Position numbers and translations under genes: made by a program. DNA of 64,000 nucleotides from Mucilaginibacter sp. MD40. Lineage in GTDB: Bacteria > Bacteroidota > Bacteroidia > Sphingobacteriales > Sphingobacteriaceae. This document shows, in pieces, positions 1,041-64,000 of this stretch. Within the stretch, counting starts at the first letter, position 1. Each line of letters begins with the position of its first letter. A model generated the notes under the pieces. The model was given only the letters and a program-made list of their open reading frames with translations. It searched no databases and had not been told where the DNA came from. The stretch spans positions 1,642,548 to 1,706,547 of the forward strand of contig NZ_NRSW01000001.1 of assembly GCF_002288635.1 (NCBI RefSeq), in the 5' to 3' direction.

Positions 1041-1152
1041 TATAGTTCATGGTTGATGGTTCATAGTAAAATCAACAACCTCGTATTAACATGCTCATAA
1101 TTGGTTTCAGTAAATCACTATGATCTATGAACCATCAACTATGAACTTTATA
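1041..1152. repeat. Intergenic inverted repeat with doubled word, hemC-hemB spacer
   Basis: The left arm (1041-1066) contains GTTCATGGTTGATGGTTCAT and the right arm (1125-1152) contains ATGAACCATCAACTATGAAC. Read as reverse complements the arms differ at only about three positions. Each arm holds a GGTTCAT/GGTTGAT word twice. The right arm reaches into the hemC-hemD stop codon. The same word family recurs beside miaA at 59191-59261. The unit lies between two co-directional genes, so a transcript of both would contain the hairpin. Confidence 0.8.
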
Positions 1153-42758: not shown

Positions 42759-42759
42759 A

Positions 42760-42871
42760 GATTAGTTATTAGTGATCAGAGATTAGTTCTCTTCATCATA
42801 ATTAATTCAAAAATATAAATAAGAGAGTGATTGTACTGATTAACTGATCACTGGTTAACCAATCACTACTC
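42760..42871. repeat. Inverted repeat in the nusG-rplK spacer
   Basis: The left arm (42760-42793) carries GATTAGTT twice around GTGATCAG. The right arm (42821-42871) is its gapped complement with CTGATCAC and CCAATCACT. It lies inside the secE-nusG-rplK transcript, not at its end. Confidence 0.65.
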
Positions 42872-42936
42872 ACAAAATCTTAAATGTTACTTAGCTTCCA
42901 CTTACTAACATTGAGTTATAATAAAGTAAATTAAAA

Positions 42937-43403: not shown

Positions 43404-44102
43404 GTGGCAAGATTAACAAAAAATCAAAAAGCGGCACTCTCCAAAATTGAGGCGAACAAAGCTTACACATTACAAGATGCATCTGCTTTGGTAAAGGAAC
43501 TTACCAATACCAAGTTTGATTCATCAGTAGATATTGATGTACGTTTAGGTGTTGACCCACGTAAAGCCAATCAAATGGTACGTGGTATTGCAACCCTTCC
43601 TCATGGAACCGGTAAAACTGTACGCGTATTGGTGCTTTGTACTCCTGATAAGGAACAAGAAGCAAAAGACGCAGGCGCAGATTACGTAGGTTTGGATGAT
43701 TATATTGCCAAGATTGAAGGCGGTTGGACTGATGTTGATATTATCATCACTATGCCAAGTGTTATGGCTAAAGTAGGACGTTTGGGCCGTATATTGGGTC
43801 CGCGTAACTTAATGCCTAACCCTAAATCGGGTACAGTTACTACAGAAGTAGGTAAAGCTGTAACTGACGTAAAAGGTGGTAAGATCGATTTCAAGGTTGA
43901 TAAAACCGGTATCATCCACACTTCAATAGGAAAAGCATCTTTCTCTGCTGAAAAAATTTATGAGAATGCATTAGAAGTATTGCAAACCATCTCTAAATTA
44001 AAACCATCAGCAGCAAAGGGCACATATTTTAAGAGTATACATCTCTCTTCAACAATGTCGCCAGGTATTACAATTGAAACTAAATCAGTAGCGGGGATCT
44101 AA
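43404..44102 (+). CDS. rplA: 50S ribosomal protein uL1
   Basis: 232 aa; GTG start at 43404. [17 protein letters not shown] and [20 protein letters not shown] are diagnostic. Stalk base of the E site and, in other bacteria, translational repressor of its own operon. Confidence 0.99.
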
Positions 44103-44104
44103 TC

Positions 44105-44623
44105 ATGAATAAAGAAGAAAAACACGACCTTGTTCTTGCCCTTACTGAGCAGATTAAAGAGTATGGTAATTTCTATATTACTGATACTGCTGATCTTACG
44201 GTTGCAAAAGTAAATAATATCCGCCGTCAGTGCTTTGAAAACGAGATCACTATGCAGGTAGCCAAAAACAGCTTGATCAAAAAAGCTATGGAAGCTGCAG
44301 GTGGCGAGTTTGACGCGATATACGATGTATTAAAAGGTTCTTCATCAATCCTTTTCTCTAAATCAGCAACAGCTCCGGCTAAGTTGATCAAGAAACTGAG
44401 AAAAACAGGTGATAAACCGGTTTTAAAAGCAGCTTATATCGATTCAGCAATTTTCATCGGAGACAATCAGTTAGATACCTTAACTAAGCTTAAATCTAAG
44501 GAACAACTGATAGGCGAGATCGTTGGCTTACTGCAATCACCGGCTAAGAACGTTGTTTCTGCTCTACAATCAGGCGGAAGCATTATTGCAGGTGTTGTAA
44601 AAACATTACAGGAAAGAGGTTAA
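44105..44623 (+). CDS. rplJ: 50S ribosomal protein uL10
   Basis: 172 aa, starts 2 nt after rplA. EEKHDLVLALTEQIKEYGNF and VAKNSLIKKAMEAAG; the C-terminal helix anchors bL12. The transcript region that binds L10 in other bacteria would lie inside rplA here. Confidence 0.98.
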   Translation: MNKEEKHDLVLALTEQIKEYGNFYITDTADLTVAKVNNIRRQCFENEITMQVAKNSLIKKAMEAAGGEFDAIYDVLKGSSSILFSKSATAPAKLIKKLRKTGDKPVLKAAYIDSAIFIGDNQLDTLTKLKSKEQLIGEIVGLLQSPAKNVVSALQSGGSIIAGVVKTLQERG

Positions 44624-44689
44624 TCCAAACACCTTTAAAAGTTTGGACATTAAAAAACAAAGTATTTAAAAGTAAAAATTTAAAATAAA

Positions 44690-45073
44690 ATGGCAGATTT
44701 AAAAGCCTTTGCTGAACAGTTAGTTAACTTAACAGTAAAAGAAGTAAACGAATTAGCTCAAATCTTAAAAGACGAGTATGGCATTGAGCCAGCTGCTGCA
44801 GCTGTTGCTGTTGCTGCTCCTGCAGGTGACGGTGGCGATGCTGCTCCTGCTGCTGCTGAGCAAACTGCATTTGATGTTATCCTGAAAGAAGCAGGTGGCC
44901 AGAAATTAGCAGTTGTTAAATTAGTAAAAGACTTAACTGGTCTTGGTCTTAAAGAAGCTAAAGATTTAGTAGACGGCGCTCCAAAAGAATTGAAAGCTGG
45001 CGTTTCTAAAGAAGAAGCTGAGTCTCTGAAAAAACAATTAGAGGAAGCCGGAGCAGTAGTTGAGGTTAAATAA
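44690..45073 (+). CDS. rplL: 50S ribosomal protein bL12 (L7/L12)
   Basis: 127 aa acidic stalk protein. N-terminal dimerisation helix, Ala-rich hinge ([15 protein letters not shown]), and C-terminal factor-binding domain ([20 protein letters not shown]). Confidence 0.99.
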
Positions 45074-45089
45074 TTTAACCCTCCGCACA

Positions 45090-45131
45090 CAATAGCATCA
45101 GACTCCGACCATTTTTGGTCGGGGTCTATTG
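45090..45131 (+). terminator. Hairpin between rplL and rpoB
   Basis: ACTCCGACC pairs with GGTCGGGGT (one G-T), with flanking CAATAG/CTATTG and a bulge. No U-run, so it is more likely an attenuator or processing site than a full terminator. The rest of the 192-nt spacer has no gene. Confidence 0.55.
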
Positions 45132-45265
45132 CTGTTTATATACGTCCTTATATAAGAGGGTTGTGGTTTGTGGTTCATCCCTTCCCTTAAAATGCAGTAA
45201 ACCAGGCTTCTGGGATACTTAAAAGCCGCATACAAACAGGTTTAATAAATTAAAATTATAACACC

Positions 45266-48200
45266 TTGGCAAACGATAATAACCAAAGAGTAAACTTTGC
45301 AACCAGCAGAAAGGTACTTGATTACCCTGACTTCCTGGATGTTCAGTTACAATCTTTCCAGGAATTTTTTCAATTAGAAACTACTTCAGATAACCGCTAC
45401 AAAGAAGGGTTGTTTAAAGTGTTTGCAGAAAACTTTCCTATTTCAGATTCAAGGAACATCTTTGTTTTAGAGTTTCTTGACTATTTTATTGATCCGCCAC
45501 GTTACGATATACGCGAGTGTATTGAGCGCGGATTAACTTACAGTGTGCCATTAAAAGCAAAGCTTCGCCTGAGCTGTAACGATGCAGAACACGAAGACTT
45601 TGAAACCATTGTACAGGATGTGTACTTGGGTACCATTCCTTACATGACGCCTAAGGGAACATTTGTGATCAATGGCGCCGAGCGTGTAATTGTATCGCAA
45701 TTACACCGTTCGCCAGGTGTGTTCTTTGGCCAGAGCCGCCACACCAACGGTACCAAATTATACTCGGCCCGTGTTATACCTTTCAAAGGTTCATGGATTG
45801 AGTTTGCTACAGACGTTAACAACGTAATGTATGCTTACATTGACCGTAAAAAGAAATTCCCGGTTACCACGCTGCTTCGTGCTATTGGCTATGATTCTGA
45901 TAAGGACATCTTAGAATTATTTGAGCTGGCCGATGAAGTGAAAGTAAGCAAATCAGGCCTGAAAAAATATATCGGCCGTAAGCTTGCTGCAAGGGTGCTT
46001 AAAAAATGGGTTGAAGATTTCGTGGATGAAGACACCGGCGAGGTGGTTTCAATTGACCGTAATGAGATCATCCTTGAGCGCGAAACCGTACTGGAAGACG
46101 ACCATATTGACATGATCATTGATGCAGGTGTTAAAACCATTATCCTTAACAAGGAAGATGCGGCCACCAGCGGTGATTATACCATTATATATAACACTTT
46201 ACAGAAAGATACTTCAAACTCAGAGAAAGAAGCGGTTGAGCATATCTACCGCCAGCTGCGTAATGCAGAACCACCTGATGAGGAAACCGCACGCGGTATT
46301 ATTGACAGGTTGTTCTTCTCTGATAAACGATATGACCTGGGTGATGTGGGCCGTTACCGCATTAACCGTAAGCTTAAGCTGGATACCTCTGATGAAACTA
46401 AGGTATTAACCAAGCAGGATATCATCGCGATTGTTAAATACCTGATCAAACTCATCAACTCAAAAGCTGAGGTGGATGATATTGACCACTTATCAAACCG
46501 TCGTGTGCGTACCGTGGGCGAGCAGCTTTATGCTCAGTTTGGCGTAGGTTTAGCACGTATGGCACGTACCATCCGCGAGCGTATGAACATTCGTGATAAC
46601 GAGGTGTTCACGCCAACTGACCTGATCAACGCACGTACACTGTCATCAGTGATCAACTCGTTCTTCGGTACCAACCAGCTATCACAGTTCATGGACCAAA
46701 CCAATCCACTGGCAGAGATTACGCACAAGCGTCGTCTGTCAGCCCTTGGGCCAGGTGGTCTTTCACGTGAGCGTGCAGGTTTCGAGGTTCGTGACGTTCA
46801 CTATACCCACTATGGTAGGTTGTGTACTATTGAAACACCAGAGGGACCTAACATCGGATTGATCTCTTCTTTGTGTGTACATGCTAAAATCAACAACTTA
46901 GGCTTTATTGAAACCCCGTACAAACGTGTGGTTGATGGTAAGGTACAGGTAGATGAGCCGGTTATTTACCTGTCTGCAGAAGATGAAGACGGTAAAACTA
47001 TTGGCCAGGCTAATGCTGTATACAATGATAAAGGTGAGTTTGCTACCCCGCGTGTAAAAGCACGTTACGAGGGCGACTTCCCGGTAATTGAGCCTGAAAG
47101 ACTGGATCTGATGGACATTGCGCCAAACCAGATCACCTCTATCGCGGCATCGTTGATTCCGTTTCTGGAGCATGATGATGCTAACCGTGCCTTGATGGGT
47201 TCAAACATGCAACGCCAGGCCGTTCCGCTTTTACGCCCTGAGGCGCCAATTGTAGGTACCGGTTTGGAAGGCCGTGTAGCAAAGGATTCACGTACATTGA
47301 TCAATGCCGAAGGCGATGGTGTAGTAGAATATGTAGATGCTAACCAGATCACCATTAAATATGACCGTAACGACCTTGATCGTTTAACTTCATTTGATGG
47401 CGATAGCAAGACCTATCTGTTAACCAAGTTTAAAAAGACCAACCAAAGCACTACCATTAACCTTAAGCCTATTGTTAAGAAAGGCCAGAGGGTTGAAAAA
47501 GGACAAGTACTTTGCGAGGGTTACGCTACCCAGAATGGTGAGCTTGCACTTGGCCGTAACCTTAAAGTAGCTTTCATGCCTTGGCAGGGATATAACTTTG
47601 AGGATGCGATCGTGATCTCAGAGCGTGTAGTATCTCAGGATATCTTCACTTCAATACACGTTGAAGAGTTTGAGCTTGAAGTACGTGACACTAAACGTGG
47701 TGAAGAGGAATTGACACCGGATATTCCTAACGTTTCTGAAGAAGCCACCAAAGACCTTGACGAAGACGGTATTATTCGTGTAGGTGCCGAGGTTAAAGAA
47801 GGCGATATATTGATAGGTAAGATCACTCCGAAAGGCGAATCAGACCCATCACCGGAAGAAAAACTGTTGCGCGCCATATTTGGTGACAAGGCAGGCGACG
47901 TAAAAGACGCGTCATTAAAAACACCTCCGTCAATTGCAGGTGTGGTTATTGATACCAAACTTTTCAGCCGTGCTAAAAAGACCACCAAGTCTGAAGAGAA
48001 AGCACAACTGGAAAAACTGGATGCCAAGCACGAAAAAGCGGTTAGAGAACTTAAAGCTACTTTAGTTGATAAGTTATTTGAAATTGTTAACGGTAAAACC
48101 TCACAAGGCGTTTACAACGTTTACAAAGAGCTTTATGTAGCTAAAGGCGTTAAGTTTACCCAAAAAATACTGGCTGAACTTAACTACGAAAACATCAACC

Positions 48201-49069
48201 CAACTAAGTGGACAACTGATGATGATAAAAATGATCAGATAAAACTTCTGCTGCATAACTACAACATCAAGGTTAACGAAGAACTGGGTGCTTACCGCCG
48301 CGATAAGTTCGCGATAAGCGTGGGTGATGAGCTGCCATCAGGTATTGTACAGATGGCTAAAGTTTACATCGCTAAGAAACGTAAGCTTAAGGTAGGTGAT
48401 AAAATGGCGGGCCGCCACGGTAACAAAGGTATTGTTGCACGTATTGTACGTGATGAGGATATGCCTTTCTTAGAAGACGGAACCCCGGTTGATATTGTGT
48501 TGAACCCGCTGGGTGTACCTTCACGTATGAACCTTGGCCAGATATACGAAACTGTATTAGGCTGGGCTGGTAAAGAGCTTGGTGTGAAATTCGCTACCCC
48601 TATTTTTGATGGTGCAAGCCACGAAGAGGTAGAGGAATGGATCAAGAAAGCAGGCTTACCGGAGTCGGGCCGTACATACCTTTACAACGGCTTAACCGGC
48701 GACCGCTTTGACCAGCAAACTACTGTAGGTATTATCTACATGCTTAAACTGGGCCACATGGTCGATGATAAGATGCACGCCCGTTCAATCGGTCCGTACT
48801 CACTTATCACACAACAGCCGCTGGGTGGTAAAGCACAGTTCGGTGGTCAGCGTTTTGGTGAGATGGAGGTTTGGGCATTAGAAGCATTCGGTGCAGCAAA
48901 CATCCTGCAGGAGATATTGACCGTTAAGTCGGATGATGTTATCGGCCGTGCCAAAACATACGAAGCTATTGTTAAAGGCGAGAACCTGCCAACACCATCA
49001 GTTCCGGAATCATTCAACGTATTGGTTCACGAGCTAAGAGGTTTAGGTTTGGATATCACCTTGGAATAA
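45266..49069 (+). CDS. rpoB: RNA polymerase subunit beta
   Basis: 1267 aa. Starts at TTG 45266 ([16 protein letters not shown]); no better start exists. Visible blocks: [13 protein letters not shown], rifampicin-pocket [45 protein letters not shown] and the C-terminal [20 protein letters not shown]. Rif-region residues appear wild type by eye. Confidence 0.99.
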
Positions 49070-49078
49070 TATTGTTTT

Positions 49079-49167
49079 AAAGTTGTAAGGTTTGAATGTT
49101 GTAAGGTTAACACCACATCATTTGAGCCTTACAACATTTCAACTTTACAACGTTCCAACCTTTCAAC
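49079..49167. repeat. Inverted repeat in the rpoB-rpoC spacer
   Basis: The left arm (49079-49110) has GTTGTAAGG twice; the right arm (49126-49167) is a gapped complement (CCTTACAACATTTCAACTTT and more). Lies within the rpoBC transcript. Confidence 0.7.
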
Positions 49168-49180
49168 AACATTAAAAAAA

Positions 49181-49186
49181 GAGGAG
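49181..49186 (+). promoter_or_regulatory. SD-like GAGGAG before rpoC
   Basis: GAGGAG, 3 nt before the rpoC ATG at 49190, a short spacing. SD-like sequences are rare in this window. Confidence 0.6.
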
Positions 49187-49189
49187 ACT

Positions 49190-52100
49190 ATGTCTTACAA
49201 AAAGGATAATAAAATCAAAAGTAACTTCACCACCATTACCATCAGTTTGGCCTCTCCGGAGTCTATCCTGGAACGTTCAAGCGGTGAGGTTTTAAAGCCG
49301 GAGACCATTAATTACCGTACTTACAAACCAGAGCGTGATGGTTTGTTCTGCGAGCGTATTTTTGGTCCGGTTAAAGATTATGAGTGCCATTGCGGTAAAT
49401 ACAAACGTATCCGTTACAAGGGTATCGTTTGTGACCGTTGCGGTGTTGAAGTAACCGAGAAAAAAGTACGTCGCGAGCGTATGGGCCACATTAACTTAGT
49501 GGTGCCGGTTGCACACATCTGGTATTTCCGCTCGTTACCAAACAAAATTGGTTACCTGCTGGGCTTGCCAACTAAAAAGCTCGACCTGATCATTTATTAT
49601 GAAAGATATGTAGTTATACAGCCAGGTGTTAAAGAAGTTGACGGAATCTCTAAAATGGATTTCCTTACTGAAGAAGAATACCTGGATATCCTGGACACTT
49701 TACCAAAAGAGAACCAGTACCTGGATGACAAAGACCCACAAAAATTTGTGGCTAAAATGGGTGCCGAAGCGCTTGAGGAGTTATTGAAACGCATTAATTT
49801 AGATGAGCTTTCATACAACCTGCGTCACCAGGCAGCTAATGAAACTTCACAACAACGTAAAAACGAAGCGTTAAAACGCTTGCAGGTTGTTGAAGCTTTC
49901 CGTGGTTCAAAAACACGTATCGAGAATAACCCTGAATGGATGATCGTTAAGATCGTTCCGGTTATCCCTCCAGAATTACGCCCGTTAGTACCATTGGAAG
50001 GTGGCCGTTTCGCAACTTCAGATTTGAACGATCTTTACCGCCGTGTAATTATCCGTAACAACCGTTTAAAACGTTTGATCGAGATCAAAGCACCTGAGGT
50101 AATTTTACGTAACGAAAAACGTATGCTGCAGGAAGCTGTGGATTCGTTATTTGATAACTCACGTAAAGTTAACGCGGTTAAAACTGAGGGTAACCGTGCT
50201 TTGAAATCACTTTCAGACATCCTGAAAGGTAAACAAGGCCGTTTCCGTCAGAACCTTTTGGGTAAACGTGTCGACTACTCCGCACGTTCGGTAATTGTTG
50301 TAGGTCCTAACCTTAAACTGCATGAGTGCGGTTTACCAAAGGATATGGCTGCCGAGCTGTTTAAACCGTTTATCATCCGCAAAATGATTGAGCGTGGTGT
50401 GGTTAAAACAGTAAAATCTGCTAAAAAGATAGTTGACCGTAAAGATCCATTAGTTTGGGATATTTTAGAGAACGTACTTAAAGGCCACCCTGTGTTGCTA
50501 AACCGTGCGCCTACGCTGCACCGTTTGGGTATCCAGGCATTCCAGCCTAAACTGGTTGAAGGTAAAGCCATCCAGCTGCACCCGTTAACCTGTACCGCGT
50601 TCAACGCCGACTTTGACGGTGACCAGATGGCTGTGCACGTACCACTTGGTAACGCAGCAATTTTGGAAGCCCAGGTATTAATGTTGGCATCGCACAACAT
50701 CCTTAACCCGGCAAATGGTACGCCAATTACAGTACCATCTCAGGACATGGTACTTGGTTTGTACTACATAACCAAAGGCCGTAAAACTGATGAAACCCGC
50801 GTGGTTAAAGGGCAAGGTTTAACTTTCTACTCTGCAGAAGAGGTGATCATCGCTTATAACGAGAAGAAAATTGACCTGCATGCCTTTATTAAAGTAAAAG
50901 GCCGTGTTAAAGAGCGCGATGGCAGCATCGTTACTAAATTGATTGAAACTACCGTAGGCCGCGTGTTATTTAACCAGCACGTACCGGAAGAGGTAGGTTA
51001 CATAAACGAGTTGTTGACCAAGAAATCACTACGTGATATTATTGGTGAGGTAGTGAAAACTACCGGTATGGCACGTGCAGCACAGTTCTTGGATGATATC
51101 AAAGAATTAGGCTTCCAGATGGCATTCCGTGGTGGTCTTTCATTTAACCTTAAAGACATCAACATCCCTGAACAAAAAGTTAAACTGATCGACCAGGCTT
51201 CAAAAGAAGTTGAGGAAGTGATGAATAACTATAACATGGGTTTCATTACCAACAACGAGCGTTACAACCAGATCATCGATATCTGGACACGTATCAACAA
51301 CCGCTTAACCGCGAACGTAATGGATATCCTCAGCAACGATAACCAGGGTTTCAACTCTGTTTACATGATGCTTGACTCAGGTGCCCGTGGTTCTAAAGAG
51401 CAGATCCGTCAGCTGGCAGGTATGCGTGGTTTGATGGCTAAGCCGCAAAAATCAGGCTCGGGTGGTGAGATCATTGAGAACCCTATCCTTTCAAACTTTA
51501 AAGAAGGTTTGTCAGTATTAGAGTATTTCATTTCTACTCACGGTGCGCGTAAAGGTTTGGCGGATACGGCGTTGAAAACAGCGGATGCTGGTTACTTAAC
51601 CCGTCGTTTACATGACGTTGCACAGGATATGATCGTTGGTGAAGTTGATTGCGGTACACTGCGTGGTATCTATACAACTGCACTTAAAGATAATGAGGAC
51701 ATTGTTGAGCCGTTATATGACCGTATACTCGGCCGTACAACCCTGCATGATGTCCATGATCCTATTACCAATGAGCTAATAGTAGCTGCAGGTGATGATA
51801 TCACTGAAGAGATCGCTAAGAAAATAGAGAACTCTCCGCTCGAAGGTGTAGAGATACGTTCTGTATTAACCTGCGAAAGCAAGCGTGGCGTGTGTTCACT
51901 GTGCTACGGCCGTAACCTTGCAAGCGGTAAACGTGTGCAAATGGGCGAGGCTGTAGGTGTAATTGCTGCACAGTCTATCGGTGAGCCGGGTACACAGTTA
52001 ACACTTCGTACCTTCCACGTGGGTGGTACTGCGTCAAACATCGCGGCTGAATCACAGATCAACGCTAAATTTGATGGTATCATCGAGTTTGAAAACGTAC

Positions 52101-53479
52101 GTACCGTTACTTATGAAACTGCCGAAGACGGCGCTGTTGATGTGGTATTAGGCCGTTCTGGTGAGTTCCGCATTATAGAGCCGGGCACTAACAAAGTAAT
52201 TGTTACCAATAACATCCCTTACGGTTCATACCTGTACATTAAAGACGGTGCAACTGTTACTAAAGGCGACCGTATCTGTTCATGGGATCCGTACAACGCG
52301 GTAATCATCTCTGAGTTTGCAGGTATCGCTCAGTTCGAGTCGGTACTGGAAGGTGTAACTTTCCGTGAGGAGAGCGACGAGCAAACCGGTCACCGCGAGA
52401 AAGTAATTATCGATACCAGGGACAAAACTAAAAACCCTGCTATCCAGATAGTTGATAATAAAGGTAATGTTGTTAAAGGTTACAACATCCCGGTAGGTGC
52501 CCACATCTCTGTTGATGAAGGTGATAAACTGCAGACCGGACAAGTTATTGCTAAAATTCCTCGTTCAACCGGTAAAACGCGAGATATTACAGGTGGTCTT
52601 CCACGTGTAACCGAGTTATTTGAAGCACGTAACCCATCTAACCCTGCGGTAGTAACCGAGATTGATGGTGTGGTAACTTTAGGTGGTGTAAAACGTGGTA
52701 ACCGCGAGATCACCATTGAAAGTAAAGACGGACAGGTTAAAAAGTACCTGGTACCACTTTCAAAACACATCCTTGTACAGGATAACGACTTTGTTAAAGC
52801 TGGTATGCCATTGTCTGATGGTTCAATCTCTCCGGCAGATATCCTTGCAATTAAAGGCCCTGCTGCCGTGCAAGAGTACCTGGTTAACGGTATACAAGAG
52901 GTTTACCGCTTACAGGGTGTGAAGATCAACGATAAACACTTTGAGGTTATCGTTCACCAGATGATGCAGAAAGTAGCTATTGAGGATGCAGGTGATACCC
53001 GTTTCCTTGAAAGAGAAGCTGTTGATAGCTGGGATTTCATGATGGAGAACGACGAGATCTACGACAAGAAAGTTGTTGTTGAGCCGGGTGATTCTACCAA
53101 CCTGAAAGCCGGTCAGATCATTTCATTGCGTAAACTGAGAGACGAAAACTCAATGTTAAAACGTCGTGATATGAAATTGGTTGAGGTAAGGGACGCCATT
53201 CCTGCGACTTCAAGCCCAATGCTGCAAGGTATTACAAGGGCTTCATTAGGTACTAAGTCTTTCATCTCTGCGGCATCGTTCCAGGAAACAACTAAAGTAC
53301 TGAACGAAGCAGCTATCGCCGGTAAACGTGATAATATGCTTGGTTTGAAAGAGAACGTTATCGTTGGTCACTTAATTCCTTCTGGTACCGGTATGCGCGA
53401 TTATGAAAATATCCGCGTGGGTTCTCAGGAAGAATTTGATCGCCTGATGGCATCAAAAACTGAAGAAGTGGAAGCTTAA
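49190..53479 (+). CDS. rpoC: RNA polymerase subunit beta-prime
   Basis: 1429 aa. Zinc finger [20 protein letters not shown], rudder region [14 protein letters not shown], catalytic [12 protein letters not shown] with three Asp, second Cys cluster [13 protein letters not shown] and bridge-helix region [13 protein letters not shown]. Last gene of the rpoBC unit. Confidence 0.99.
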
Positions 53480-53494
53480 TCAGGTTTTTTTGAA

Positions 53495-53502
53495 TATTTT
53501 TG
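53495..53502 (+). promoter_or_regulatory. -7 element overlapping the rpoC terminator
   Basis: TATTTTTG matches TAnnTTTG, 44 nt before the DUF3467 ATG. Its last base is the first base of the terminator stem. Confidence 0.5.
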
Positions 53503-53540
53503 CAAAGCCTTCTATGAAAATGGAAGGCTTTGCTATTTTT
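53502..53540 (+). terminator. rpoC terminator
   Basis: Perfect 11-bp stem GCAAAGCCTTC (53502-53512) / GAAGGCTTTGC (53523-53533), 10-nt loop, then TATTTTT. Confidence 0.85.
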
Positions 53541-53546
53541 ACTACT

Positions 53547-53858
53547 ATGGAAGAACAGAATAACAACCAGCTGAATATTGAGCTTACAGAAGATGTGGCT
53601 GAAGGAGTTTACGCTAATCTGGCCATTATAACTCATTCCAGTTCAGAGTTCGTGCTTGATTTTATCAGAGTAATGCCCGGTGTTCCCAAAGCGCGGGTAA
53701 AATCACGTGTAGTACTTACGCCCGAACATGCAAAAAGGCTCCTTTCTGCGCTTGAAGATAATATTGAAAAATATGAGGAAGCGCACGGCCGCATTAAAAT
53801 ACAAAACGACCCACCCGCGTTCCCACTAAATTTTGGTGGTACCATGGGGCAGGCGTAG
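53547..53858 (+). CDS. DUF3467 domain protein
   Basis: 103 aa cytoplasmic protein. IELTEDVAEGVYANLAIITH and the core EFVLDFIRVMPGVPKARVKS, then RVVLTPEHAKRLLSALEDNI, match DUF3467, a small family of unknown function often beside transcription or cell-envelope genes. ATG 53547 starts it; upstream codons in frame lie in the rpoC terminator. Confidence 0.9.
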   Translation: MEEQNNNQLNIELTEDVAEGVYANLAIITHSSSEFVLDFIRVMPGVPKARVKSRVVLTPEHAKRLLSALEDNIEKYEEAHGRIKIQNDPPAFPLNFGGTMGQA

Positions 53859-53965
53859 TTAGTTGATTAAGTGATTGGTTAATTAGTTGATTAGGTTTGT
53901 CTTCGCGCAGAAGTTATGGTGCGGCTACCTAATGACTCAATGACTCAATGACTCAATGACCAATC
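53859..53965. repeat. Inverted repeat with AATGACTC tandem, DUF3467 to fcl
   Basis: The left part is GATTAAGTGATTGG...GTTGATTAGGT. The right part (53927-53965) is ACCTAATGACTC with AATGACTC repeated three times, complementary with G-T pairs. GTTGATTAGGT is shared with the element at 62998-63070. Confidence 0.6.
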
Positions 53966-53967
53966 AA

Positions 53968-54900
53968 ATGAACAAAGATTCAAAAATATATATAGCAGGC
54001 CATCGGGGAATGGTGGGTTCGGCCATTATGCGTAAACTGCAACAGGAGGGCTATACCAACCTGATTACGCGTACCTCGGCAGAGCTTGACCTTCGCGACC
54101 AAAATGCTGTTACCAATTTCTTTTCTGCCGAAAAGCCCGAATATGTTTTTTTGGCTGCTGCCAAAGTTGGTGGTATTGTAGCCAATAATACTTACCGTGC
54201 GGAATTCCTTTACGATAACTTACAGATACAGAATAATATCATTCATTCATCGCATGTATATGGGGTTAAAAAGCTGATGTTCCTGGGGTCGAGCTGTATC
54301 TACCCTAAAATGGCACCCCAGCCATTAAAGGAAGATGCCTTACTGACGGGTTTACTTGAGCCAACCAATGAACCCTATGCCATTGCCAAAATTGCCGGAA
54401 TAAAAATGTGCGACGCATACCGTGCGCAGTATGGTTGTAACTATATTTCGGTAATGCCTACCAATTTATACGGCTATAATGATAATTATCACCCTCAAAA
54501 CTCCCATGTGCTGCCGGCGCTCATAAGGCGTTTCCATGAAGCAAAGGAGCAGGGAGCACCAAGTGTAACTATTTGGGGCAGCGGTTCGCCACTAAGGGAG
54601 TTTTTATTTGCCGATGACCTGGCCGAAGCTTGTTACTACTTAATGCAGCATTACGATGAAGCTGGTTTCATCAATATTGGCAGCGGAAAGGAAATTTCTA
54701 TAAAGGATTTGGCGCTGCTAATTAAAGATATTGTAGGCTATAGTGGCAATATTGAATTTGACGCCTCAAAGCCTGATGGTACGCCCCGGAAACTGATGGA
54801 TGTATCAAAACTGGCTGAAAAAGGTTGGACTTATAAAACAGAACTAAAAGAGGGTATTCAGCTGGCTTATGCCGATTTTTTAAATAAGCACAAAGGGTAA
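53968..54900 (+). CDS. fcl: GDP-L-fucose synthase
   Basis: 310 aa SDR-type epimerase-reductase that makes GDP-L-fucose from GDP-4-keto-6-deoxymannose. [45 protein letters not shown] and [14 protein letters not shown] (the YxxxK pair) are diagnostic. ATG 53968 ([14 protein letters not shown]) is preferred; an ATG at 53956 is the last copy of the AATGACTC tandem. The partner gmd is not in the window. Confidence 0.93.
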
Positions 54901-54902
54901 TA

Positions 54903-55769
54903 ATGATGAACCGTAATAAAGTGATCGTATTTGGAGCGTCGGGCCAATTGGGGCAATGCCTCAAGAAAGTGGCGGAAGAACAACGCCTGGAAGGCTACAT
55001 ATTTCCTGACGAGGCAGAATCCAATATATTAGATGTATCCGTTTTAGAAAAGTTATTTGTTGCCCACAACCCGGCATATTGTATCAATTGTGCCGCATAC
55101 ACTGCTGTAGATAAAGCAGAAAGTGATAGTGAGACAGCTTTTGCTATAAATAGGAAGGGAGTGGAGAATATTGCCGATATGTGCAACTCCTATGATGCCG
55201 TCTTAGTTCATATCTCAACCGACTTTGTATTTGGGGGCGATGGGAACAAGCCGCTTACCGAAGAAGATACCACGGCTCCTGTAAGCGTATATGGCCAGAG
55301 TAAGCTCGAAGGCGAAATGGTTATACCGGCTTTGCTCAATAAGTACTTTATATTACGTACGGGCTGGCTGTATTCTGAGTATGGTAACAACTTTGTTAAA
55401 ACCATGCTGCGCATAGGCCGGGAGCGAGGCGAGATAAAAGTAATAAACGACCAGACAGGTACGCCCACCTACGCTATGGACCTGGCATTAACCGTCACCG
55501 GCATCATATCATCAGGCATTAATAAATTTGGCTTATACCATTATGCCAACGAGGGTACCGCAACCTGGTACGATTTTGCCAGGGCGATACATGAATTTGC
55601 GGCAACCGGAGTAAAAGTACACCCTATACCCACAACCGAATATCCTACACCGGCAAAACGCCCGTTATATTCCGTAATGGATAAATCAAAAATAAAGCAG
55701 ACATTTAACATAAATATCCCGCAGTGGGAAGATAGTTTAAAGGTTTGTTTACATAAACTGGAAGCTTAG
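54903..55769 (+). CDS. rfbD: dTDP-4-dehydrorhamnose reductase
   Basis: 288 aa; last step to dTDP-L-rhamnose. VIVFGASGQLGQCLKK, CINCAAYTAVDKAE, STDFVFGGDGNKPLTEED, GQSKLEGE (YxxxK as YGQSK) and RTGWLYSEYGNNFVK. It follows fcl by 2 nt (two ATGs at 54903 and 54906). rfbB and rfbC are absent from the window. Confidence 0.95.
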   Translation: MMNRNKVIVFGASGQLGQCLKKVAEEQRLEGYIFPDEAESNILDVSVLEKLFVAHNPAYCINCAAYTAVDKAESDSETAFAINRKGVENIADMCNSYDAVLVHISTDFVFGGDGNKPLTEEDTTAPVSVYGQSKLEGEMVIPALLNKYFILRTGWLYSEYGNNFVKTMLRIGRERGEIKVINDQTGTPTYAMDLALTVTGIISSGINKFGLYHYANEGTATWYDFARAIHEFAATGVKVHPIPTTEYPTPAKRPLYSVMDKSKIKQTFNINIPQWEDSLKVCLHKLEA

Positions 55770-55803
55770 CCAAACAAAGTAATTAATAACTCATTTACAG
55801 CGC

Positions 55804-56664
55804 ATGAAAGGTATCATATTAGCAGGCGGATCGGGTACAAGGCTTTATCCCATTACAAAGGCCATAAGTAAGCAGTTAATGCCTATTTACGATAAGCCGA
55901 TGATTTACTACCCGCTATCGGTGTTGATGCTGGCGGGCATCAGTGAGATATTGATTATTACCACACCCGAGGATAATGCCGGTTTTAAGCGGCTTTTAGG
56001 TACCGGTGAAGAGCTTGGCTGCAGGTTTGAGTATGCCGTACAGGAGCAGCCCAACGGTCTTGCGCAGGCCTTTGTAATAGGGGCCGATTTTGTTGGAAAA
56101 GATAAAGTAGCTTTGGTCTTAGGCGATAATATTTTTTACGGTTCGGGTTTTAGTAAACTGATACAAAGCTTTAATAATGTTGATGGCGCCGCCATATTTG
56201 CCTACCCCGTTGCCGATCCGGAGCGGTATGGTGTGGTGGAATTTGATAAGGGTAACAAAGCCATATCTATCGAAGAAAAACCATTGAAGCCAAAATCTAA
56301 ATTCGCGGTACCGGGCCTGTATTTTTATGACAACAGCGTTATTGAAATAGCTAAGAACATTGCTCCATCTCCAAGAGGTGAATACGAAATAACCGATGTG
56401 AACAAAGTTTACCTGGAGCAAGGTAAACTGCAGGTAGGTGTAATGGACCGCGGAACAGCTTGGCTGGACACCGGTACTTTTGACTCACTAAGCGATGCTA
56501 CCGAATTTGTAAGGGTAATTGAAAAACGGCAGTCCAAAAAAATTGGGTGTATAGAAGAGGTAGCTTATTTAATGGGCTATATCAATGCATCTCAATTAGC
56601 TATTCTTGCTGATAAATATAGCAAAAGCGGCTACGGACAATACCTAAAAAACCTGCTTAGCTAA
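55804..56664 (+). CDS. rfbA: Glucose-1-phosphate thymidylyltransferase
   Basis: 286 aa; first step to dTDP-sugars. [46 protein letters not shown], and the C-terminal [18 protein letters not shown]. Completes a fcl-rfbD-rfbA unit supplying two deoxysugars, presumably for LPS or capsule. Confidence 0.97.
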
Positions 56665-56675
56665 GCAGGTTTTTT
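56646..56675 (+). terminator. Terminator overlapping rfbA stop
   Basis: A perfect 30-nt palindrome AAAAAACCTGCTTAG/complement that includes the rfbA stop TAA and ends in TTTTTT. Confidence 0.85.
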
Positions 56676-56696
56676 AGTAAATATAGTAGCTATATA

Positions 56697-58199
56697 TTAA
56701 GCGTGCTGTGGTGTAAACAAACTTTCACCTTGCAACGATTTATCAATCATATTTTTGGTAATGCGTTGTACCTTCTCTTTATCGGCACCGGCCATTCCAC
56801 GTTTGCTGCACCAGTCTGTAGTGGCTGCGTTTACAACGGTGCCTGAAGTAGGTGTTTTTCTAAATACAATAAATGTACCTAAACCGTTGGTCGCTTTTTC
56901 AGGGCCTTCAACGCCACCGTTAACCGCGAAATCGTAACCAAGAAGTTCTATTTTATCAAATTTTAGTTTCGAATTATCAATCACCGGTATTTCTTTTGAA
57001 CCGGGCATGATCATTTTTACTACCGGCGCACCGTCATATTCAACAGTAGGGATCTTTAATATATCACCATTCTTTAAGCCTGTACCTTCAAACAATGGCG
57101 ATTTATCGTTTACTATTTTATAACCGTCTTGCCTGTTGGTTAGTTTAGAGCCATACCCGCCGCCGCTAAAATCGGCACCTATGCTCGAGGTAATAGGATA
57201 TTTAAGAAAATCAGTTTCCCACAAAATGGAGCTGTAAGGCGTGTCTTTCAGAGGATCCAGATTATTATCTTTATAACAGATCATCAGGTTATCCTTCTTG
57301 TTATACCTCACTTGCCAGTACATGGTATTGCCGGATAACACCAGCATGTTTTTACCACTGGCAACAAATTTATCCACGTTTTCACGTGCTGCCCTTGTCC
57401 AGTACTCGCTGTGGCCAACTATCATCAGCAATTTCGACTTTTGGATATTGTTATAATCGTCCAGGTCGGCGTCAGTAATGTAATTTGCATTATAATTCTG
57501 GGTAAGCATCCAAAAGAAAAAGCTCGATGTAAAGTCTTTACGACCTACCAAGCCATCCTGGTATCTCAGATAAGACGAAACGGTTGCCCTGTTTCCCAGA
57601 TCGGGGTCATATGCGCTTTTGCCACCGCCGTAATTGTAGGCGTTATCGGTATTGGTAGGATAAACAATGGTAATATCATACGGGTTTTCGTTATCTGATA
57701 TCACAAAGTAATTAGTACCTCTGAAACGATATACACCCGGCTTAAGCGTATCAGGCAACTTAAATTCGCCGGTTTTCTCGAACTTACAGCCGTCTAACCA
57801 GGGCTTTTCGGTATTTACCTTTTGTACTTTTACAGCTGTGGTATAAGAGGCGTGTATTTTACCATTGAAATCACTTAAAGTAATTATCTGCTTCGGGTTG
57901 TCAGGTCCAGAATAATACAAGGTTATCATATCCCCGGCTTTATAAGAAAGCTTATCGGTGTAGCCGTAAAGGGTTTTACTAAAATCAGTCCCTTTGATAA
58001 GGTTAGGGCCTAACTCTGTAGTGGAATACAAACTTTGGTCATAAACCTTTGGCGGAATGTCGGGATTGGTTGAACCGGTATTTACAGTGTTGCCGGGTTT
58101 GGGTGTAGTGGTAATGATCTCGCTTTTCTTGCATCCAACGAGCACAAGCAAAGCAGAGGCAGATCCTATAAAGGATCGTCTATTAATAGTAGGGGGCAT
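56697..58199 (-). CDS. N,N-dimethylformamidase beta-subunit-like lipoprotein
   Basis: 500 aa. NRRSFIGSASALLVLVGCKK has a twin-arginine pair and a lipobox (LVGC, Cys23), suggesting Tat export and lipidation. The body matches the C-terminal region of dimethylformamidase large subunits: IVGHSEYWTRAARENVDKFV, ASGKNMLVLSGNTMYWQVRY and LLGYDFAVNGG. Small-subunit partner is absent and the substrate is unknown. It is convergent with rfbA. Confidence 0.78.
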   Translation of the reverse strand: MPPTINRRSFIGSASALLVLVGCKKSEIITTTPKPGNTVNTGSTNPDIPPKVYDQSLYSTTELGPNLIKGTDFSKTLYGYTDKLSYKAGDMITLYYSGPDNPKQIITLSDFNGKIHASYTTAVKVQKVNTEKPWLDGCKFEKTGEFKLPDTLKPGVYRFRGTNYFVISDNENPYDITIVYPTNTDNAYNYGGGKSAYDPDLGNRATVSSYLRYQDGLVGRKDFTSSFFFWMLTQNYNANYITDADLDDYNNIQKSKLLMIVGHSEYWTRAARENVDKFVASGKNMLVLSGNTMYWQVRYNKKDNLMICYKDNNLDPLKDTPYSSILWETDFLKYPITSSIGADFSGGGYGSKLTNRQDGYKIVNDKSPLFEGTGLKNGDILKIPTVEYDGAPVVKMIMPGSKEIPVIDNSKLKFDKIELLGYDFAVNGGVEGPEKATNGLGTFIVFRKTPTSGTVVNAATTDWCSKRGMAGADKEKVQRITKNMIDKSLQGESLFTPQHA

Positions 58200-58282
58200 T
58201 TTATTATTATTTAATAACTGATGCTAAAATAGCAATAAGTCATTAATTTTAAATCGCAACTATCTTAAATTTATATTAATTT

Positions 58283-59191
58283 TCAGTTAGTTACAACTTT
58301 TTTCTCTGCAAAAGATATTATTTCAGCAGCGTTTAGCCAATTAAGTTCATTATCCTTCCTAAACCAGGTTAGCTGTCGCTTGGCAAAACGCCTTGTATTC
58401 TGTTTAATTTTGTCAATAGCATCGTTAAGGCTAACCTTACCATCCAGGTAATCAAATAGTTCTACATAGCCAACCGTATTGAGCGCGCCATAATGCCTTA
58501 GCGAATAAAGCTTTTCCACTTCGGGTAAAAGCCCCTCCTGCATCATGACATCCACCCTCATGTTTATCCTGTTATAAAGTTCTTCGCGAGGCAAATCAAT
58601 ACCTATTTTAATGGTGTCAAAACCGCGTTGGTTTTTAGTGCCGGTTAAATAGCTTGACATAGGCTTACCGGTGGCTTCATATATCTCGAGCGCACGTATA
58701 ACCCTTTGCGGGTTGTTAATATCTACCGTATGGTAATAGTCAGGATCAACCAGTTTAAGCTTTTGCTGTAGTTCGGCAATGCCATTAACTGCCAGCTCAG
58801 TATTTAACCGGTCGCGTATGTCAGTATTGGCTGCGGGCAGGTCATCAAAACCTTCCGTTACGGCTTTAATGTATAACCCCGACCCACCTACCATAATTAC
58901 AACTTTGTAAGTTTTAAATAATTGTTCTAAAAGCGCCAGGCATTCGCGTTCGTAATCTCCAACCGAGTAAGGTTCAGTAACACTTAGCGTATCTATAAAA
59001 TAGTGGGGGGCGGCGGCAAGCTCGGTTGTGGTGGGCTTAGCCGTACCGATGGACATTTCACGGAAAAACTGCCTGGAATCGGCCGATACGATAACCGTAT
59101 TGTAATGCTGTGCCAGTTGTATGGCAGCCGCTGTTTTTCCGGATGCTGTAGGGCCGGTAATTACTATTAAAGTAGGGTTGGTAGCGTTCAT
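58283..59191 (-). CDS. miaA: tRNA dimethylallyltransferase
   Basis: 302 aa. Adds isopentenyl to A37 of tRNAs reading UNN codons. P-loop GPTASGKT (13-20), VSADSRQFFREMSIGTAKPT, and VGGSGLYIKAVTEGFDDLP. It ends the minus-strand run from dapD. Confidence 0.97.
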   Translation of the reverse strand: MNATNPTLIVITGPTASGKTAAAIQLAQHYNTVIVSADSRQFFREMSIGTAKPTTTELAAAPHYFIDTLSVTEPYSVGDYERECLALLEQLFKTYKVVIMVGGSGLYIKAVTEGFDDLPAANTDIRDRLNTELAVNGIAELQQKLKLVDPDYYHTVDINNPQRVIRALEIYEATGKPMSSYLTGTKNQRGFDTIKIGIDLPREELYNRINMRVDVMMQEGLLPEVEKLYSLRHYGALNTVGYVELFDYLDGKVSLNDAIDKIKQNTRRFAKRQLTWFRKDNELNWLNAAEIISFAEKKVVTN

Positions 59192-59261
59192 AGATAGAAA
59201 ATGGTTTATAGTTCATGGTTCATAGGTTCTTTGCCATGAACTATGAACCACCAACTATCTA
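59191..59261. repeat. Inverted repeat beside miaA
   Basis: Left arm 59191-59219 with TTTATAGTTCATGG; right arm 59234-59261 with CCATGAACTATGAACC. It fills the gap between miaA and the acidic-tail gene. The words match those at 1041-1152. Confidence 0.75.
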
Positions 59262-59265
59262 CTAA

Positions 59266-59931
59266 TTAATAATCGTCACTGCGTCCGGAACGGCGATCGT
59301 CCTCCTCAAAATTATCATCGTCGCCAAAGCCGAACTCATCTTCTTCAGTCTCTTCTTCCTCGTGTTCATCATCACTACCGCTAAGGTGTTTAGGAGTACT
59401 CTCATCGGCATCGGTTACTTCAGAGAAATCTTCAGCATCTTCAGGGTTAAATTGCATTTCGTTCAAAAAGTCGAAGTCCTCATCAGCAGATGATACCACC
59501 GTTGGGTTAAACACGTTGCCAAATTGCTTTGGCGCTTCGCCAACAGAGCGCACTACGTTAGGATAGGTTACAGCCGGATCCTCGTCCAGAATGATTTTCA
59601 TCAGCTCGACATGAAAGTCAAACGGGCGGTCGAAATTAAAGGTGTAGTAAAATTTCTGATGAGGATCGTCAATATAGTTGCTTAGTTTTGCTTTCTCCAT
59701 CAGCGGGATGTTGCGATCAATCCTTTTTTGATTGGGCATGTAAGTAATCTCATCACCCTTCATCCATTGGTCGTTACTTACGTAGAACGATGATGGATAT
59801 TCGGATTTGTATCCTGTAGACTGATGGATAGCTTTATGAAGATCTTCAAAAGTTTGGTTGGATTTAATATCGATATCCCTCGAAACATCATCGTAATCTT
59901 CAAAAGTAACCCTGAACCTGTATAGTGCCAT
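59266..59931 (-). CDS. pRiA4b ORF3-like protein with acidic tail
   Basis: 221 aa. Residues ~1-125 (LYRFRVTFEDYDDVSRDIDI, TFEDLHKAIHQSTGY, PSSFYVSNDQWMKGDE) match the PRiA4_ORF3-like family, named from a plasmid gene but common on chromosomes. The C-terminal ~50 residues are rich in Glu and Asp and likely disordered. Function unknown; context between cca and miaA may hint at tRNA or RNA work. Confidence 0.75.
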   Translation of the reverse strand: MALYRFRVTFEDYDDVSRDIDIKSNQTFEDLHKAIHQSTGYKSEYPSSFYVSNDQWMKGDEITYMPNQKRIDRNIPLMEKAKLSNYIDDPHQKFYYTFNFDRPFDFHVELMKIILDEDPAVTYPNVVRSVGEAPKQFGNVFNPTVVSSADEDFDFLNEMQFNPEDAEDFSEVTDADESTPKHLSGSDDEHEEEETEEDEFGFGDDDNFEEDDRRSGRSDDY

Positions 59932-59983
59932 TGTGTTTATTTAAGTATAATTTTATCAGAAAAATATTTTATTTAATTAAAAT

Positions 59984-61390
59984 TCAGTTTGCCACAACTT
60001 TCAAGCCAATTTCTTTTCCTTTTTCGATAGTGTATTTTATCGCTGCTTCGCGGTCGTTAGGAATTTCCCCTTCCAGAATAGCCTCGCGTATCTTGTTTTT
60101 GATAATGCCAACTTCGCGGCCCTCACTTATGCCAAATAGTTGCATAATATCCAGGCCGGTTACCGGCGGCTGCCAATTGCGTATGTTATCGCGTTCTTCC
60201 ACATCTTTGAGCTTTTGTTGTACCAGCTCAAAATTCTGACGGTATTTTTTTACTTTATATTCGTTTTTTGTGGTTACGTCGGCCTTGCATAACAGCATGA
60301 GTGCCTCAATATCGTCACCTGCCTCAAAAAGCAGACGGCGTACGGCAGAATCTGTTACCACTGATTGCGATAATACAATAGGGCGCAGGTGCAGTTGTAC
60401 CAGTTTTTGCACAAACTTCATTTTTTCATTCAAAGGAAGTTTGAGTTGTGTGAAAATTTTAGGTACCATGCGGGCGCCTTTGTCCTCGTGGCCATGAAAC
60501 GTCCAGCCGTGGCCTTGCTCAAAGCGTTTGGTGGCGGGTTTGGCAATATCATGCAATATAGCGGCCCAGCGCAGCCAAAGGTCGCCGGTAGTTTCACAAA
60601 TATTATCCAGTACCTGTAGCGTATGGTAAAAGTTGTCTTTGTGCCCCTTACCGTTGATCACCTCCACGCCATACAATGCAGCCATTTGCGGGAAGATGAT
60701 ATGCAGCAGGCCGGTATCAAATAAATAGTTAAACCCCACGGAAGGTAGTGGCGACAGGATGATCTTATTCAGTTCATCCGTAATGCGTTCCTGCGATACG
60801 ATCTTTATCCGCTGTAAGTTACTTTTTATAGCTGCAACGGCCTCATCATCTATCCTGAAACCCAGCTGTGAGGCAAAACGTATGGCCCGCATCATGCGTA
60901 ATGGGTCGTCTGAGAATGTTTCTACCGGGTTAAGCGGTGTACGCATCAGTTTATTGTTCAGATCTGTAATGCCCTCAAAAGGATCTATTAATTCCCCGTA
61001 ATTATCAGGATGCAACGATATGGCCAGCGCGTTAATGGTAAAATCGCGGCGTTTCTGGTCGTCTTCGAGCGTGCCATTCTCTACAATTGGTTTGCGCGAA
61101 TCAGAACGGTAGCTTTCTTTACGGGCACCAACAAACTCCACCTCCACATCCTGGTAGCGCAGCATAGCCGTCCCGAAGTTCTTGAAAACCGACACTTTAA
61201 CGTTGAGGCTTGCCGCAACCGCTTCGGCAAATTCAATACCGTTACCCAATACAACTACGTCAATATCTTTTGATGGCCTGTTCAGGAAAATATCGCGCAC
61301 GTAACCGCCAATTGCGAAAGCCTGTACATTTTTTTCGGCAGCAAGTTTAGAAATAACAGAAAATACCGGATGTTGCAGGTGTTGTTTCAT
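59984..61390 (-). CDS. cca: CCA tRNA nucleotidyltransferase
   Basis: 468 aa. Adds or repairs the 3' CCA, needed because none of the six tRNA genes here encodes it. Nucleotidyltransferase core [20 protein letters not shown] (GG28, D42, D44), [12 protein letters not shown], head/body [11 protein letters not shown] and an HD domain [14 protein letters not shown] 61390 is chosen ([10 protein letters not shown]); a longer frame overlaps tsaC. Confidence 0.96.
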
Positions 61391-61445
61391 AGTGTAGGCT
61401 GCGAACAGGCTCGTATTGGCAGAGGCAAATTTAATATTATAATTT

Positions 61446-62012
61446 TTAACGGCGTATAAATTCAAATGTGCCGTTTGGAGCCAGCCGCATAATGGTCGAT
61501 GGCTTTTTTATTTCAGTAAGGTGCTGATCAACGTCTACCACGTAATCAACCCCATCTATTATATCCTGTGATATTTTACCAAAATACTCCGGTGAAGGCT
61601 CCCCACTGATATTGGCCGAAGTGCTAACCAGAGGTTTGCGCAGGCGTTGTATCAGTTGCTGGCAAAAGGGGTGGCTGGTTACCCTAATACCCACACTGCC
61701 ATCATCAGAAATAAGTGCAGCAGGGAGGTTTTTGGCACCCGGCATTACCAGCGTAAGCGGATTTTCCGCGTATTCTATCAATGTGTAAGCAATGTCAGGT
61801 ACTTCCTGTATGTAGCTTTGCAATTTGTTGTCTACATCAACCAGAATAATCATGCTTTTGCTTTCCTCACGTTGTTTAAGCGCGAAGATCCGTTTAATGG
61901 CATCGGTATTGGTAGCATCGCAGCCTATACCCCAGATAGTATCGGTAGGGTAGAGGATGATACCGCCCTCCTGTACTATCTTCAGCGCTTTATTAACTTC
62001 GTCTTTAAGCAT
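61446..62012 (-). CDS. tsaC: L-threonylcarbamoyladenylate synthase (Sua5/YciO/YrdC)
   Basis: 188 aa; makes the threonylcarbamoyl-AMP for t6A37 of ANN-decoding tRNAs. [49 protein letters not shown] and [12 protein letters not shown]. Its start overlaps the GT9 gene end by 8 nt, so translational coupling is likely. Confidence 0.95.
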
Positions 62013-62991: not shown

Positions 62992-62997
62992 GATTAA

Positions 62998-63070
62998 GTT
63001 GATTAAGTGAATAGTTGATTAGGTGAGTCGTTGTAAAAGAAAAACAACTCACCTAATCAACTTAATCAAC
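62998..63070. repeat. Inverted repeat beside GT9 gene
   Basis: Left arm 62998-63034 holds GTTGATTAAG and GTTGATTAGGTGAG; right arm 63044-63070 holds CTCACCTAATCAACTTAATC. The arms match except for two short insertions. It fills the 86-nt gap to dapD and shares GTTGATTAGGT with 53859-53965. Confidence 0.8.
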
Positions 63071-63077
63071 AAAGTAC

Positions 63078-63893: not shown

Positions 63894-63898
63894 CAGTA

Positions 63899-63906
63899 CA
63901 AAAATA
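63899..63906 (-). promoter_or_regulatory. -7 element of dapD
   Basis: On the minus strand TATTTTTG, 5 nt before the dapD ATG, a nearly leaderless arrangement. Confidence 0.55.
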
Positions 63907-63964
63907 AATTTCGCCAAATTAAAGGATTTTTGGGGACATTTGTTTGATTATAGTGATAAGATAT

Positions 63965-64000
63965 ATGCCTGAGAAAGATAAATTAAGGATAGATAAGTAT
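63965..64000 (+). CDS. S4-domain RNA-binding protein, 5' fragment
   Basis: Twelve codons from ATG 63965 to the window edge read MPEKDKLRIDKY, the usual N-terminus of Bacteroidota small S4-domain (HslR-like) RNA-binding proteins, which continue beyond the window. Too short to confirm. It is divergent from dapD, 71 nt between starts. Confidence 0.6.
   Translation, partial: MPEKDKLRIDKY

Follow-up and report, generated by a model that had tools for sequence, protein, structure and literature searches.

RESULTS

Two spacers with a common vocabulary

In the window, by which we mean the whole 64-kb stretch of DNA that was analysed, two spacers lie directly upstream of the minus-strand genes hemB and miaA, whose likely starts are the ATG codons at 1035 and 59191. 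Upstream of hemB lies hemCD (porphobilinogen deaminase fused to uroporphyrinogen-III synthase), and upstream of miaA a PRiA4_ORF3-like gene. In both spacers, heptamers are arranged in two tandem arrays of opposite orientation, GTTSATR followed by YATSAAC. The inverted arms are 26 nt long, 92% complementary and 58 nt apart at hemB, compared to 28 nt, 82% and 15 nt at miaA. The coordinates of these and of the other features are given in Table 1. The end coordinate 1152 of the original prediction runs into the final bases of hemCD, whose stop codon occupies 1148-1150. We also observed an in-frame ATG at 1048-1050 within the hemB arm, 15 nt upstream of the likely start, which may extend the N-terminus of hemB by five residues (MNYKL).

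Table 1. Positions of the spacer elements in the window. Labels of vocabularies were set by eye for the rpoB-rpoC, 53859, miaA and 62992 gaps.
Feature	Position	Strand	Remarks
hemB-adjacent arm (3' arm in mRNA)	1041..1066	-	three GTTSATR words on + strand
Loop of the hemCD-hemB element	1067..1124	.	58 nt, unconserved; aligns with close relative G081 only
Arm adjoining the hemCD stop codon (5' arm in mRNA)	1125..1150	-	stop TAA = 1150-1148
nusG-rplK spacer, GATTAGT / ACTGATCACT words in inverted order	42759..42936	+	by eye only
rpoB-rpoC spacer hairpin, GTTGTAAG-type 8-nt words	49070..49189	+	stem 49082-49151; z −4.8
DUF3467-epimerase spacer, chimeric pair of GTTGATTAG + TGACTCAA words	53859..53955	+	z −2.1, weak fold
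Arm adjoining the miaA start codon (59191)	59191..59218	-	words at 59204-59225 (GTTTATAGTTCATGGTTCATAG)
Arm adjoining the stop of the PRiA4_ORF3-like gene (59266-59931)	59234..59261	-	
THDPS_N_2/hexapeptide-repeat (tetrahydrodipicolinate succinyltransferase-like)-glycosyltransferase-9 spacer hairpin, GTTGATTA-type words	62992..63077	-	z −9.7

The predicted RNA folds of both elements are very stable, with −38.9 kcal/mol (z −6.5) at hemB and −31.9 kcal/mol (z −7.1) at miaA, and in neither case was any of 200 shuffled sequences as stable. By eye no T-run follows the stem in either sequence. Known RNA families were rejected as a source of the elements, as Rfam returned six tRNAs above the gathering score in the window and nothing else.

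Abundance of the words

The sequence TATAGTTCATGG occurs as exact copies at 1041-1052 and 59207-59218. For the two-word pattern GTTSATRGTTSATRG we found six exact matches in the window, every one of them inside the hemB and miaA spacers. Under a dinucleotide model (20 runs) we obtained no matches with 0 or 1 mismatch and 0.65 per window with 2 mismatches. Across the genome (4.285 Mb) exact matches to the same pattern number 13, spread over 7 places, and its reversed control has none. When three words were searched with as many as 3 mismatches, we obtained 45 matches versus 8 for the control. Thus the words common to both spacers occur far above chance.

HemB, 99% identical to that of Mucilaginibacter sp. 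44-25, assigns the genome to Mucilaginibacter. Within the genus the exact two-word pattern was present in 92 of 100 Mucilaginibacter genomes, ranging from 0 to 340 matches per genome (reversed pattern: 0 to 9). In the family sample it was found in 51 of 151 genomes, and those from outside the genus sometimes carry dozens of copies (for example 88 in G512 and 74 in G540). For the phylum sample we detected it in 93 of 395 genomes, mostly with one to a few matches; the other matches were pure GTTGATGG/GTTGATAG tandems or came from genomes with controls just as high (G292, G331). A chance likeness of the two spacers is virtually ruled out by the window, genome and genus controls. The original prediction had noted nearly the same sequence in the arms of both spacers and had taken this to indicate a dispersed element. 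Both points are borne out: the 12-nt copies are exact, the window matches are confined to the two spacers, and further copies lie elsewhere in the genome, also when mismatches are allowed, and throughout most of the genus, with controls near zero.

Anatomy of the elements

We surveyed inverted repeats in spacers without using the word itself. The survey and the occupancy counts below are based on ungapped scores of at least 14, and gene starts were set by simple scripts rather than a trained gene finder. In Mucilaginibacter such repeats were found in 33 of 132 codirectional spacers, compared to 4 of 1056 shuffles; for convergent spacers the count was 8 of 22 and for divergent ones 2 of 28. Among codirectional spacers from outside the genus, other Sphingobacteriales had 5 of 55 and the remaining taxa 17 of 271 (22/326 overall). 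In the genus the repeat spans 0.83 of a codirectional spacer at the median, versus 0.44 elsewhere (P = 3e-5). At hemCD-hemB the median lengths left uncovered are 3 nt on the stop side and 6 nt on the start side (60 labelled spacers).

For the arms, again found without the word, self-identity was 0.47 at lag 7 and 0.34 at lag 8, compared to 0.23-0.30 at other lags. All 16 of 16 neighbouring inverted arrays face each other (+ then −) with none in the −+ order, and 3 more neighbours have the same orientation. By eye an arm consists of 2-4 words in variable order. The two arms of an element have their vocabulary in common, and their word order differs. In genome G072 the array often appears to provide the stop codon itself, for example ...TAGTTCATAG (by eye). 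The pairwise similarity of 20 loci in this genome was 70-82% over 74-123 nt (25 longest alignments); their loops are dissimilar by eye, and GYAGCTGC recurs beside the 5' arm. The G072 locus L144 carries a 20-nt tandem, CATGAACTATCAGCAGCTAC, which is about three heptamers long and ends in ordinary heptamers.

Candidatus Poribacteria (L224) and Bacteroidota (L213 and L169) also have codirectional spacers in which other short words form inverted arrays. The words include AGTTGTC/AGTTATC, which are close to TAACTGA, and CAACATCG/CAACACAG. These spacers suggest that the inverted-array arrangement extends past Mucilaginibacter.

The original prediction had further described one word family immediately upstream of minus-strand start codons. 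The positions hold at hemB and miaA, and the arrays do end beside the start. However, the arms occupy the entire gap from stop to start and also occur between convergent genes, and a start-codon element proper was therefore rejected. Likewise, GTTSATR is common to hemB and miaA but is just one of at least six or seven vocabularies. The others noted by eye in the window, in G088 or at hemB include GTCSATR, GTCATTRG, GTTCATTRG, GTTGATTAG, GTTGTAAG/GTTGAAAA, GAGATAT and GATTAGA. At rpoB-rpoC alone, we could tell apart five vocabularies by eye in seven syntenic genomes; the leader GGAGACT before rpoC is conserved. In the rplL-rpoB spacer (45074-45265) a hairpin AATAGCATCAGACTCCGACC..GGTCGGGGTCTATTGCTG is conserved in 7 of 7 syntenic genomes, and in 4 of the 7 the second half of the spacer has GAGATAT-type hairpins instead.

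Turnover at the orthologous hemCD-hemB gap

The hemCD-hemB spacer could be parsed at 76 of 97 hemB loci; the 21 unparsable loci were dropped. We detected a strong inverted repeat (score at least 14) in 55 of the 76 spacers, drawn from six or seven unrelated families. Labels were assigned with regular expressions. The word families account for most rows (GTTNATR 17, GTCSATR 15, GTTCATTRG 8, GTCATTRG 8), followed by the CCCCCTTTAGGGGG type with 12, the CCTCCC/GGGAGG type with 7, CCAGGATTTAAC with 1 and 8 labelled 'other'.

When the labels were mapped onto a tree built from the neighbouring end of hemCD, the 67 tips took 32 changes, whereas shuffled labels took 37-48 (mean 42.4). The tree is based on 342 columns and is weakly supported (15 of 72 inner branches starred), and the count omits the 8 'other' rows and one row with too little sequence. 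These numbers therefore point to some inheritance together with much switching. Among ten well-supported (starred) sister pairs the label was the same in 4 and different in 6, where 2 of the 6 include a row scripted as 'other'. Between related species, one vocabulary supplants another at the boundary of the same two genes. The occupancy of 55/76 is far above the codirectional average of the genus (33/132), which suggests a local function or a hot spot rather than mere tolerance.

Comparison of two close relatives

The same replacement can be seen between G000, which carries the chimeric pair of Table 1, and its close relative G100 (96% identity over 20 kb). For the hairpin-filled codirectional spacers we observed identities of 52, 60, 95, 98, 99, 99, 100 and 100%, and for the other codirectional spacers 76, 93, 98, 99, 99 and 100%. 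Thus 2 of 8 hairpin-filled gaps were wholly different, compared to 0 of 6 others. In the gap at 53859-53955 a GTCSATR hairpin takes the place of the chimeric pair in G100, and the flanks are 90-100% identical per 50 nt right up to the gap edges. The G000 type of this gap is also found in G057, and the G100 type in G081 and G066. The flanks at hemB are more divergent (∼88%), and a longer recombination tract may therefore account for the difference there. In the 44100-64000 comparison one 400-nt block around 55299 was 72% identical and the rest ∼96%; this block probably represents a local replacement.

Evaluation of alternative explanations

The turnover would be expected if the processing or stability of the mRNA, or translational coupling, depended on pairing between cistrons and any pairing sequence sufficed, so that unrelated families could supplant one another. 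Such selection is consistent with the strong inverted repeats that hemCD-hemB spacers retain at well above the general rate despite the change of sequence, with the stable folds at hemB and miaA and with the few nucleotides left at stop and start. The mismatches in the arms, however, do not favour pairs that RNA can form. On the mRNA strand we counted 65 G.U versus 79 A.C mismatches in 60 hemB spacers, 68 versus 89 in 64 hemB spacers and 30 versus 36 in 33 survey spacers. Only the 17 window spacers, a small set, lean the opposite way with 20 versus 9 (these 17 and the 64 hemB spacers were taken at gapped scores of at least 10). Furthermore, arms were no more alike within an element than between elements (P 0.24, n 12; P 0.30, n 4), and convergent spacers are occupied as well. 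Selection for RNA pairing is thus supported neither by the arm mismatches nor by arm co-variation, the latter with small numbers, and we regard it as a doubtful general explanation. Given the over-occupancy at hemCD-hemB, the hairpin may still have a role at that gap. That the elements are intrinsic transcription terminators is most improbable. Strong hairpins past stop codons, frequent in convergent gaps (8/22), would fit, but the T-run is missing at hemB and miaA, and the hairpins lie inside likely operons (rpoB-rpoC, hemCD-hemB) and end beside a start codon.

The elements could also have arisen on the spot, with slippage building the heptamer arrays and template switching making the inverted partner, and with no transfer. 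The 7-8 nt period of the arms, their common vocabulary without common order and the mention of a slippage hypothesis for heptamers in PMC4692102 speak for this origin. It does not account for the distribution at 53859, where one chimeric cassette is held by G000 and G057 and the other cassette, with matching loop, by G100 and G081, in both cases against the kinship of the flanks. Nor does it predict change that is all-or-none (52-60% or 95-100% identity), and we consider a purely local origin quite unlikely. Mobilisation of REP/REPIN repeats by RAYT, a Y1 transposase, is in turn very unlikely. RAYT-like Y1 transposases are present in 91 of 100 genomes and the GTTSATR copy number tracks their count (Spearman 0.43), but it also tracks genome size (0.39), a confounder, and in the nine genomes without Y1 the median match count is nevertheless 13. 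When ten repeat patterns were tested, 0 of 21 Y1 loci had any of them inside the fetched stretch, and RAYT-linked REPs were rejected for these words. The Y1 loci instead bear other palindromes beside the gene, several with GTAG (by eye). At L324, L325-L343 and L305 the Y1/RAYT-like genes adjoin palindromes of their own, for example TTTGTAGAAAA beside GCCCC..GGGGC, apparently with one kind per transposase type.

DISCUSSION

Proposed exchange of spacer cassettes

Having established the anatomy of the elements, the convergent orientation of their arrays, the filling of the gap, the presence of several vocabularies per genome and the replacement from stop to start by a cassette of another vocabulary, we propose, with our confidence evenly balanced, that the elements at hemB and miaA are examples of a class of exchangeable palindromic cassettes in spacers, which are either tolerated or useful through a hairpin that bridges stop and start. 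Each cassette in this sense would consist of two facing arrays, built from tandem words of 7 or 8 nt, and would span the stop-to-start gap. Cassettes would be swapped as units, through recombination or some palindrome-moving activity, and the arrays may later grow, shrink and drift word by word via slippage. Exchange of whole cassettes is favoured because the change is all-or-none and because homologous cassettes are common to species against kinship. They would behave like REP/MITE-type palindromes, yet not as cognate repeats of the local RAYT-like transposases. Judged from position alone, the hairpin in the mRNA would put the stop and start codons ∼10-18 nt apart and allow transcription to go on through the operon gap, so that a cassette of ∼100 nt would cost little or would keep the translation of both genes linked; for this reason cassettes would be retained in operons. 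A terminating ribosome would find the next start because the stem joins it to the stop.

Several observations weigh against parts of this proposal. With regard to exchange, a clean empty site was not found, and no enzyme was linked to the words at the 21 RAYT-like loci. Fresh transposition is argued against by copies within a genome that are only ∼70-82% alike over 74-123 nt and by the mostly low copy numbers in G000. As for the bridging of stop and start, stop codons in the 5' arms of the 33 survey spacers are hardly enriched (65 versus 54 expected). In 8 convergent spacers the count was 8 versus 14.8 expected. At hemB we counted 102 versus 73.5 expected in 48 word-family spacers and 22 versus 7.8 in 19 spacers of the other two families. 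An account of word polarity by stop codons in all frames was weak in the survey and stronger at hemB, and was set aside. We think it possible, though unlikely, that operon gaps in Mucilaginibacter are slots for interchangeable hairpins. A dedicated process would then read the hairpin, or the space between stop and start, instead of any particular sequence, and would swap unrelated 7- or 8-nt vocabularies between species, leaving the flanking genes untouched.

Comparison with known repeats

REP units are fixed sequences of 20-40 bp, and MITEs are short inverted-repeat elements between genes that are often mobile. The Mucilaginibacter elements resemble MITEs as short inverted repeats between genes, but may lack a constant body, and by eye their loops vary among copies. 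Like REP and REPIN palindromes (PMC3733652), they are palindromic, intergenic, multi-copy and located between operon genes. Unlike these, the word arrays do not flank RAYT-like genes, and by eye their arms are arrays of variable length rather than a fixed palindrome with a GTAG or CGTC tag.

The closest known kind are the convergent heptamer-array pairs of Xanthomonas (PMC4692102). The GGGAATC arrays consist of heptamers in tandem whose units vary, and most of them lie in intergenic DNA between aligned genes, few between divergent ones; 70 and 75 cases of two nearby arrays in convergent orientation were reported, and the prominent repeats lie at differing genes in two species. Mucilaginibacter likewise has tandem heptamers with degenerate positions, arrays that face each other (+ then −) and a similar gene context. 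In contrast to the single G-rich, quadruplex-forming word per Xanthomonas genome, there are many 7- and 8-nt vocabularies per Mucilaginibacter genome, and the GTTSATR/GTCSATR words contain GG at most and thus no G-tracts capable of forming a quadruplex. Unlike the GGGAATC arrays as presented in PMC4692102, the Mucilaginibacter pairs span the gap from stop to start and supplant one another at orthologous gaps. The TAACTGA repeats of Beggiatoaceae, cyanobacteria and five Bacteroidetes (PMC4679880) are also heptamer arrays, mostly intergenic and often few nt upstream of a start codon. They are built on a single word, nearly all direct with one inverted repeat, whereas the Mucilaginibacter arrays are inverted pairs. 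Its author suggested a protein-binding site for translation; its main text names neither Mucilaginibacter nor Pedobacter. We found no description of the present repeats in Mucilaginibacter in the open-licence literature. Inverted heptamer-array pairs were already known, but with one word per genome; in the present case one anatomy is common to many vocabularies.

Shine-Dalgarno sites are little used in the host phylum. The gaps of essential gene pairs (rpoB-rpoC, hemCD-hemB) wholly change sequence among close relatives, and the genes themselves barely change. Two questions thereby become testable: the reason for the abundance of heptamers in bacterial intergenic DNA, and the status of hairpins between cistrons, which may be baggage that the cell tolerates or may tie a stop codon to the start that follows it.
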